Source: Methanolobus chelungpuianus (lineage in GTDB: Archaea > Halobacteriota > Methanosarcinia > Methanosarcinales > Methanosarcinaceae). From it: a stretch of DNA of 64,000 bases. Both the position numbers and the translations under genes were made by a program. This document shows, piece after piece, positions 5,405 through 46,503 of this stretch (positions are counted from its first letter, which is position 1; each line of letters begins with the position of its first letter). Under the pieces are notes generated by a model that saw only the letters and a list, made by a program, of their open reading frames with translations, was not told the DNA's origin and made no database searches. The stretch is from positions 1 through 64,000 of the forward strand of contig NZ_JTEO01000005.1 in the NCBI RefSeq assembly GCF_024500045.1, given 5' to 3'.

Positions 5405-5505
5405 GGGACCCGTTGAGCAAGGTCAGGCCATGCGCTTAAGCTTGACTGCAAGGACAGAGGCGCCCAAAAGCGTGGTGGTTTTTCGGACACCTCACCTTTC
5501 CTTGA
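5405..5505 (+). ncRNA. candidate structured RNA, copy C of a three-member family
   Basis: Intergenic (5210-5723 has no gene). It contains AAAAGCGTGGTGGTTTTT at 5466 onward and CCTCACCTTTCCTTG at 5490-5504. The copy at 46150-46278 (minus strand) has nearly the same words in the same order, and the copy at 10559-10686 has a looser version. Upstream, GTCAGGC (5422-5428) can pair with GCTTGAC (about 5439-5445) as a hairpin. A TATA-like ACTATAAG lies at 5395-5402 and a second candidate TATTATAT at 5342. The 5' end is uncertain. Not recognised as a known Rfam family. Confidence 0.45.
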
Positions 5506-10291: not shown

Positions 10292-10558
10292 ATATCTCAC
10301 CTCCCCTCCTGAATATGGCTACTTTATAGTCTGTCTTTATCGTGTATAAACCTGATCGCCACTACAGTGTCAATAGAACATTGTTTCTGCATAATGCTAG
10401 CATCATTGACATCAAAGGCCGGTAGTATCTTACGGATATAATATTATATGAATCATTGAAATTCAGCAGTGATATAATATTTTCAGGTTCGCGAAAAGTA
10501 GAATGTTATGTTCGTTTAATACAGGTTTATCTTAAATAAAATAATATCTAACTGTTTC

Positions 10559-10686
10559 ATGCGGGTTAACGGATCAAGGGGTAACAGGCCACAAAGGGTA
10601 AACCGAAGAGATATCGGGGAATATCTCATACTGAAAGGGTGAAACGCTGCAAGGTGGCATGTTCATCAGGCGCCTCACCCTTCCTA
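10559..10686 (+). ncRNA. candidate structured RNA, copy A
   Basis: It lies in the 10292-10726 gap, which has no gene. TTAAATAA at 10532-10539 is a TATA-like box, and about 25 bp later the sequence ATGCGGGTTAACGG begins. A perfect hairpin GAGATAT-CGGGGA-ATATCTC sits at 10608-10627. An outer stem AAGGGTGA (10635-10642) pairs with TCACCCTT (10675-10682) around AAACGC...GGTGG. The copy on the minus strand at 46150-46278 has the same ATGCGGGT start, a GAGAT..GGGG..ATCTC hairpin with a compensatory A-T to G-C change, and the same GGTGG...GCCTCAC..TTCC end. Confidence 0.5.
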
Positions 10687-10726
10687 AAGATAGGGAGATA
10701 TAGGGAGATTATCCCGCAATCCTGAC

Positions 10727-40915: not shown

Positions 40916-41074
40916 TTATTCCAGGCTGCCTTCTATCTTGGCACCATCATACGTGCATCGGGTATTGATAACTCCCTGGAGCATAGGTCTATAGTCAGCA
41001 TCATCATCTTCCGTAAACGCGGCAGGACCGCTATCAAAATCAGTTTTTTCTGTCCAGGTCTTTAACGAACTCAT
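40916..41074 (-). CDS. small acidic protein of unknown function
   Basis: A 52-aa protein, MSSLKTWTEKTDFDSGPAAFTEDDDADYRPMLQGVINTRCTYDGAKIEGSLE. The ATG at 41074 follows GGGAGG with normal spacing, which strongly supports translation and rejects the longer 60-aa frame. No family is recognised. Confidence 0.55.
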   Translation of the reverse strand: MSSLKTWTEKTDFDSGPAAFTEDDDADYRPMLQGVINTRCTYDGAKIEGSLE

Positions 41075-41588
41075 ATTATTTTCCTCCCTATCCCGCAACA
41101 GCTGTCCGGATACTACTAGACCAGTGTAAACGGATGTAAATCCTTTCTGTTTCTGAGCGCGTTTCTGGCTTCAAGGCCCAAGATATCTTATTGTATCTAG
41201 AACCAGTGGTTTATGCCTCTATCCCGGACATGAAACTGTCCTGCTCCCAGAAGCAAGATAAGACGCATGGAACAACTGTTCATGAAACGCCTTTTCCTGA
41301 GATGTACGGGATATATCAGAATCCCATTCCCACACTCACGGACACTCCCTGCCCGCAGGGTGTAAGAAGTGTTTTTTCAATATAACATGAACCGTTCTTA
41401 ATATTACGAATTAAAGTACATTCAGCCCGGACAGTTAATTTCAAAACCGCTATAATTTCAGCCGGGTTTAACGATAACCGAAAGAAGGATAAGTTAACCT
41501 GAAATATGCTTGGTATTAAGTTTCTGGTCTTTATAAATAGCAGCATTCCCATATTGAACATGAGAGAACTATCCGGGAAAAGGGACTT

Positions 41589-42374
41589 ATGAAGAAGCCA
41601 TTGCTGGATGTTATGTTTGCTTCCAAGAAAAGGAAAGAGATACTATTATTGCTTAAAGATGGCCCGGTGGAGATGGAAGCAATCCTCAGATCCATGCAAA
41701 CAACACGGCAAGCTTTGCTTCCGCAGATAAGGATACTGGAGAATCACCAGGTTATGGCTCATTCGGATGACAGCTATGCATTGACAAAAACAGGTGAACT
41801 CCTAGTAGATGCAATGGTCCCTCTGATAGAGAGGATTGAAACCCTCGATGTCGATATAGATTACTGGGGAACCCATTCTCTTGAATTCATCCCGCCTCAT
41901 CTCTTAAGCAGGATAGAGGAACTTGGAAAGTGTAAGATAAAAAATCCATCTATTTCGGAAATATATAACCTGCCCCAGGGTTTTGAAGAAGAGTCGAAGA
42001 AGTCAAAGTCAGTATTTGGGCTCACTACAGTATTCCACCCGAACTTTTCAAGCGTATATGAAGGATTGACAGATAATGGAGTAGCAGTATCCACCATTAT
42101 CTCAAAGGAGCTTTTTGAGAACCTTAGAAAGAACCAGTATGCCAGCTTCAAAAAGCTTGTAGAATCGGACAAAGTTAATCTTTTCATCTATTCAAAACCA
42201 GTCAGGACCGTATTCTTTGCAATGAATGATTTTTCCACCATATACAATATACTGACAAAGGATGGCGAGGTTGATCATTACATTGTCAGGTGTCATAATA
42301 AAAAGGCTATCGGCTGGTCAAAGGAACTCTTTGAGCACTATTTGAAAGACTCGACGCCGATTACTGAGATTTGA
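41589..42374 (+). CDS. Msr/FilR1-type winged-helix regulator (paralogue 1)
   Basis: A 261-aa transcription factor. Residues 1-85 are an ArsR-like winged helix (KKPLLDVMFASKKRKEILLLLKDGPVEMEAILRSMQTTRQALLPQIRILENHQVM). Residues about 110-255 match the methanogen-specific FilR1/DUF1724 effector domain (FIPPHLLSRIEELGKCKI, FHPNFSSVYEGLTDNGVAVSTIIS, GWSKELFEHYLKDSTPIT). Members of this family (Msr proteins) activate or repress methyltransferase operons such as mtaCB. No methyltransferase lies next to it here. It is clearly paralogous to the protein at 48669. Confidence 0.9.
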   Translation: MKKPLLDVMFASKKRKEILLLLKDGPVEMEAILRSMQTTRQALLPQIRILENHQVMAHSDDSYALTKTGELLVDAMVPLIERIETLDVDIDYWGTHSLEFIPPHLLSRIEELGKCKIKNPSISEIYNLPQGFEEESKKSKSVFGLTTVFHPNFSSVYEGLTDNGVAVSTIISKELFENLRKNQYASFKKLVESDKVNLFIYSKPVRTVFFAMNDFSTIYNILTKDGEVDHYIVRCHNKKAIGWSKELFEHYLKDSTPITEI

Positions 42375-46149: not shown

Positions 46150-46278
46150 ATTCAAGGAAAAGTGAGGCACCCGGAAACCACCACGCTTTAGGGTGCCTCC
46201 TTCCTGACGAATCCGAGATGTTCCCCAACATCTCTATCATTCCACTCCCTTGCGGTTCATTTCCCCACGACCCGCATT
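46150..46278 (-). ncRNA. candidate structured RNA, copy B
   Basis: A TATA box (GTTATATAAATAC on the minus strand, 46293-46304) lies about 25 bp before ATGCGGGTCGTGGGG. Then come a perfect hairpin GAGATGTT-GGGG-AACATCTC (46215-46234) and a second stem AGGCACCC (46191-46198 on the minus strand) with GGGTGCCT (46165-46172), whose loop is TAAAGCGTGGTGGTTTCC, followed by CACTTTTCCTTG. The loop word AAAGCGTGGTGGTTT recurs in copy C (5466) and the 5' start and first hairpin recur in copy A (10559). No reading frame longer than a few codons is inside. Confidence 0.55.
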
Positions 46279-46292
46279 ACCTAGTAAGTCCT

Positions 46293-46304
46293 GTATTTAT
46301 ATAA
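46293..46304 (-). promoter_or_regulatory. TATA box of candidate RNA copy B
   Basis: The minus strand reads GTTATATAAATAC, an excellent archaeal TATA element with the usual distance of about 25 bp to the start of the conserved RNA. The remaining intergenic stretch 45686-46503 has no gene that I can support. Confidence 0.55.
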
Positions 46305-46503
46305 CCTAAACTCTTCTTAATCAGAGGAGCGATACGATTTTCTCTCATGAAGAAATGTTTTAATGGCTCCCTAATTTCAGGAAGGGAACAAAAATAGATA
46401 ATACGTATAAGATTATATCACAGGTATAATGTTTAAGGTTATCGGGATGCAGTCACCCGGCACATATGGTAACTGTTCCCGACGGTTCATTTCCGACAGG
46501 AGC

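Follow-up and report, generated by a model that had tools for sequence, protein, structure and literature searches.

A multicopy family of structured small RNA genes in Methanolobus chelungpuianus and its close relatives

Four copies in the 64-kb window

The window, that is, the whole 64-kb stretch of Methanolobus chelungpuianus DNA that was analyzed, holds four members of a structured small RNA gene family, named here copies A, B, C, and D (Table 1). A preliminary description of this DNA had proposed a family of three. All three (A, B, and C) do belong to it, but copy D had been overlooked, and A and C are diverged members. For copy B the description was accurate: the sequence words given are all present, with TTATATAA located ~20-25 bp ahead of TGCGGGTC and CCTCACTTTTCC at the end, and the stems are formed as described, one being GAGATGTT-GGGG-AACATCTC and the other GAGGCACCC/GGGTGCCTC flanking AAAGCGTGGTGGTTT.

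Table 1. Positions of the RNA copies, their promoters, and the genes next to copy D
Feature	Position	Strand	Description
Copy B	46153..46279	-	~125-nt RNA, three hairpins; 136.9 bits (B is part of the covariance model); fold z -4.4
Hairpin 1 of copy B	46251..46276	-	Loop with GUGGGG; 8/8 helix pairs covary across the family
Hairpin 2 of copy B	46215..46234	-	GAGAUGUU-GGGG-AACAUCUC; 7/8 pairs covary
Hairpin 3 of copy B	46164..46199	-	Loop AAAGCGUGGUGGUUU at 46175-46189; inverted repeat; 9/9 pairs covary
Promoter of copy B	46296..46384	-	A-rich boxes at ~-71, -54, -36; ATTA at -15; then GGTTATATAAA
Copy C	5411..5504	+	Hairpin 3 only; 38.1 bits, E 1.1e-8
Copy A	10557..10687	+	Diverged member; 27.4 bits, E 7e-6
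Promoter of copy A	10452..10540	+	Boxes partly retained; TTAAATAAA
Copy D	41249..41360	-	Diverged member, leader type; 18.2 bits, E 0.002
Promoter of copy D	41380..41463	-	Profile E 4.6e-10; matrix score 46.6 (D outside the training set)
FilR1-type regulator gene	41589..42374	+	Divergent from copy D; PF08350, E 7.4e-22
52-aa protein gene	40916..41074	-	Downstream of copy D; without Pfam match

The kinship of A, B, and C is not due to chance, as had been argued. An iterated profile seeded with copy B alone retrieved A (E 1.2e-11) and C (E 3.5e-11), and both are still scored in the window by the covariance model R1, which was built from copy B and 31 diverse homologues with A and C left out. When folds were compared with shuffled sequences, none of 200 shuffles was as good as copy B, while neither A (z -0.3) nor C (z +0.4) beats its shuffles alone.

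The promoter of copy B has a matrix score of 64.7 and is matched by the promoter profile R2 at E 3.9e-16, this site being included in R2. That of copy A scores 29.1 with the matrix, of which it is a training sequence, and is not among the matches of R2; random sequence (200 kb) reaches no more than 2.6 with this matrix. No family promoter was found for copy C with the promoter matrix. The hairpin 3 stem of copy C contains two C.A mismatches, and its orthologous locus in another species is L049. L048 (G055:C70) is the locus of a related species that corresponds to copy B; there the promoter and hairpins 1 and 2 have seemingly been lost, and what remains is hairpin 3, not far from where the upstream gene ends. 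Like copy C and L049, L048 is a hairpin-3-only locus.

Structure, promoters, and distribution of the family

The median fold z over 32 homologues was -3.9. In a plain alignment, 27 cells were changed on both sides of a pair, compared with 8.0 in shuffles. The same count in a 107-copy alignment, which was fitted to the model and is thus biased toward it, and whose copies are mutually related, was 299 versus 81, with 94.7% of the cells paired and a double change seen in 27 of the 28 pairs. Covariation is far above both shuffles and slid controls. The compensatory change of hairpin 2 from G-C to A-U pointed out in the preliminary description is genuine and is carried by 40/105 distinct sequences. 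The stems are variable, and the loops and linkers are nearly constant across the family; these include the G-rich loops GUGGGG, GGGG, and GCGUGGUGGU, as well as the linkers GGGAGUGGA and GGAUUCGUAAGGA. A tandem second unit of hairpins 2 and 3 is found at many loci, and a third unit at one locus.

In two sets of orthologous loci (five and four species), sequence identity is 89-90% for the RNA, 68% for the box region, and 73-84% between TATA and start, compared with 48% far upstream, 57-70% in the first 60 nt downstream, and 44-58% further downstream. The earlier proposal of a functional structured RNA is thus supported both by the compensatory changes and by the conservation of RNA and promoter above their flanks, and also by the published cold-induced sRNAs discussed below.

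Family promoters have phased A-rich boxes at -71, -54, and -36, ATTA at -15, and GGTTATATAAA. All four promoter elements are present in 23/52 distinct promoters versus 0.2% of shuffles. The profile R2 gave 17 matches in the window's own genome, 16 of which lie ahead of a family RNA, and 14 matches, mostly ahead of family RNAs, in G043; in the RNA-less genomes G057 and G060 it gave none. Through the strongest extra match in G043, at 2927993, the leader variant described below was found. The family promoter was sought on cold-induced TRAM genes and not found there. On inspection, many copies show a TATAAAA box ~25-40 nt past hairpin 3, but its simple score is hardly above that of shuffles (7.24 versus 6.99), and the box is not put forward as a family feature. 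At G043:C1:887328-887551 (L157:2300-2600) in M. psychrophilus, a ~110-nt stretch lies between two family-type promoters that point toward each other, so that both strands of the RNA region could be transcribed.

BLASTN with copy B gave eight matches in its own genome and roughly ten in several congeneric ones, and the iterated profile, run on the loci fetched after BLASTN, collected 97 copies, A and C among them. The covariance-model scan suggested in the preliminary description returned many matches in the window's own genome (21, corresponding to 19 loci), and the family is present in 12/27 genomes of the genus Methanolobus, with 30 matches in G040, 24 each in G043 and G056, 22 in G046, and 16 each in G049 and G064. 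M. chelungpuianus and its close relatives therefore contain about 20 copies per genome. None of the 238 genomes searched across the class had a match at E <= 0.001 outside Methanolobus. The R1 scan of single genomes gave one weak candidate (E 1.6e-5) in G067, which belongs to another genus of the Methanosarcinaceae. In a pattern scan of named genomes, 48/49 contigs were from Methanolobus, including the cultured M. halotolerans SY-01. A pattern match in Treponema was regarded as chance. Viral carriage was also rejected, the one contig that fits the search pattern having unrelated surroundings and no R1 match, and plasmids gave no match to the family. For copy B, no Rfam 15 family reached its gathering threshold (best sub-threshold match sR2, 11.6 bits, E 4), and the window yields one tRNA alone.

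Cold-induced sRNAs of M. psychrophilus and neighboring genes

Differential RNA-seq identified 195 sRNAs in M. psychrophilus R15 (PMC5378194, 2015), nine of which are reported to be highly conserved and induced by cold (8 degrees C), with a conserved 'cold box' upstream of their promoters. We take G043 to be this strain, because the positions of four small TRAM genes and two Hsp20 genes fit Mpsy_0643, 2002, 3043, 3066, 2176, and 0869, at ~960-990 bp per gene number. Exactly nine R1 loci of G043 score >130 bits, the next best scoring 107, and the nine are very probably the published sRNAs. They lie at R15 positions 602123 (-), 1537336 (-), 3071989 (+), 2445668 (+), 2934052 (+), 760141 (-), 2839936 (-), 1863141 (+), and 214414 (+). 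Both sets consist of nine strongly similar intergenic RNAs in the same genome, and the conserved box array ahead of the family RNAs is a candidate for the published 'cold box'. Since R15 has nine published sRNAs and nine high-scoring loci, members of the family are very probably cold-regulated sRNAs, and we infer that the copies in the window's own genome are transcribed and, very probably, cold-induced.

The main text of the R15 paper (PMC5378194) describes no structure, other species, gene linkage, or target. Besides the nine, R1 detects some ten further, diverged loci in R15, as well as the 19 loci in the window's genome. New here are the structure, copy number, distribution, promoter architecture, strong linkage to FilR1-type genes, and leader variant; we found no earlier account in the literature of the family's shape, spread, or gene neighbors.

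The commonest neighbor of the family RNAs is a gene for a FilR1-type winged-helix regulator (PF08350). In R15, such a gene lies convergent within 250 nt at 6/19 RNA loci (0.05 expected; 0/5000 permutations) and within 2 kb at 12/19 (0.74 expected). The corresponding counts in the window's own genome, given without a permutation test, are 3/19 and 10/19. Over 27 genomes, FilR1-type and RNA counts correlate with a Spearman coefficient of 0.72, uncorrected for descent. Co-duplication in dynamic regions could account for part of this linkage. RNA-rich Methanolobus genomes mostly have 27-57 FilR1-type genes (exceptions are G055 with 12 and the incomplete G047 with 22) compared with 6-20 elsewhere among these 27 genomes, and the genes are often clustered, as at G000:C4:736755-751338. 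In several species (L031, L043, and L063), an orthologous RNA locus has a gene for a TIR-domain protein downstream of it.

Copy D represents the leader variant. The 52-aa protein encoded downstream of it belongs to a family (MSSLKTW...GVINTRCTYDGAKIEGSLE) found in 16/112 Methanosarcinaceae genomes. In six genomes, a total of seven loci (the window at 40916-41074 on the minus strand, L168, L172, L173, L175, L183, and L190) have the family promoter and a diverged RNA ahead of this gene on the same strand, at a distance of 19-175 nt for copy D and its counterparts; other genomes carry the gene with neither family promoter nor RNA.

Possible mode of action

Bacterial sponge RNAs such as CsrB and RsmZ have several hairpins, constant G-rich loops, and repeated modules, and are encoded by sibling genes under common control; their classic partner is CsrA. 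The present family is similar in its constant G-rich hairpin loops, repeated modules, and co-controlled siblings. It differs in that the GGA excess is modest (6.0 versus 4.5 per RNA), and CsrA (PF02599) is absent from the carrier genomes G000, G043, G040, and G049, so that a CsrA sponge was rejected.

Copy B is one of ~20 sibling ncRNA genes with their own TATA promoters, which are very probably induced by cold and, in our judgment, probably act in trans, by dosage, on a common partner. A dosage-type trans-acting RNA is favored because of the constant loops, the tandem modules, and the high copy number. Each ~125-nt RNA gene would be read from its own TATA promoter beneath the common upstream A-rich box array, and in the cold many near-identical copies would be made together, presenting the same binding surfaces. 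The constant loops and linkers sit on covarying stems, and the one common partner would, by conjecture, most likely be an RNA-binding protein. Binding of this partner would readjust a regulon linked to the FilR1-type regulators around which the RNA genes cluster, in a direction that is again conjectural.

A serious rival, though on balance an unlikely one, is that the siblings act by base pairing, their constant loops, particularly the one in hairpin 3, pairing with mRNAs and controlling translation. A possible target is the start of the FilR1-type genes, with AUG AAG AAG CCA CUG CUU as first codons. Between loop 3 and many of these starts, 10-13 pairs are possible, with energies down to -14.5 kcal/mol, and the mean pairing energy is -8.9 to -9.9 in G043, G040, and G049 versus -6.4 in RNA-less genomes. 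However, there is little excess in G000, and the codon choice of FilR1-type genes shows no preference for pairing over synonymous shuffles (mean percentiles 0.55, 0.43, 0.33, and 0.52 in four carrier genomes). The match may merely follow from the conserved peptide MKKPLL; selected pairing at the FilR1 start codons was rejected, the pairing found not exceeding what the peptide dictates. Similarly, mimicry of the ribosome (anti-Shine-Dalgarno) was discarded, pairing with the 16S 3' end being weaker than in shuffles (-9.9 versus -11.3 kcal/mol).

Alternatively, the RNA could act in cis on neighboring transcripts, as their 5' leader, as a terminator, or by affecting stability, and not be a free sRNA. 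The position of copy D and its counterparts ahead of the 52-aa gene, the hairpin-3-only copies, and the several copies convergent with a FilR1-type gene are consistent with this, but it is improbable for the family, as most copies have their own promoter without a common same-strand gene downstream. The many dispersed copies and their patchy occurrence in the genus would also fit a repeat or a miniature mobile element lacking any RNA function, but this is very improbable given the compensatory changes, the conserved promoters, the lack of terminal inverted repeats bounding copy B and of plasmid matches, and the orthologous loci in four to five species, where the RNA is far more conserved than its flanks.

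The dosage reading can be extended, more doubtfully, to a genus-specific archaeal regulon in which at least 20 sibling sRNAs acting on a common partner are wired into the expanded FilR1-type set as a switch of the methanogen cold response, one branch having turned into a small-protein mRNA leader. The intergenic, structured sRNA154 of Methanosarcina mazei, which has its own promoter, is tied to nitrogen limitation. The present family resembles it and other single-copy methanoarchaeal sRNAs in being intergenic and structured, with promoters of its own; it was found in no non-Methanolobus genome of the Methanosarcinaceae apart from the G067 candidate. To our knowledge, few archaeal sRNA families combine a covariation-backed structure with many copies and a common promoter code. 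The covariance model, promoter signature, and gene linkage provide handles for the unexplained cold-induced sRNAs of a methanogen, and M. psychrophilus and M. halotolerans are among the cultured species in which they can be studied.
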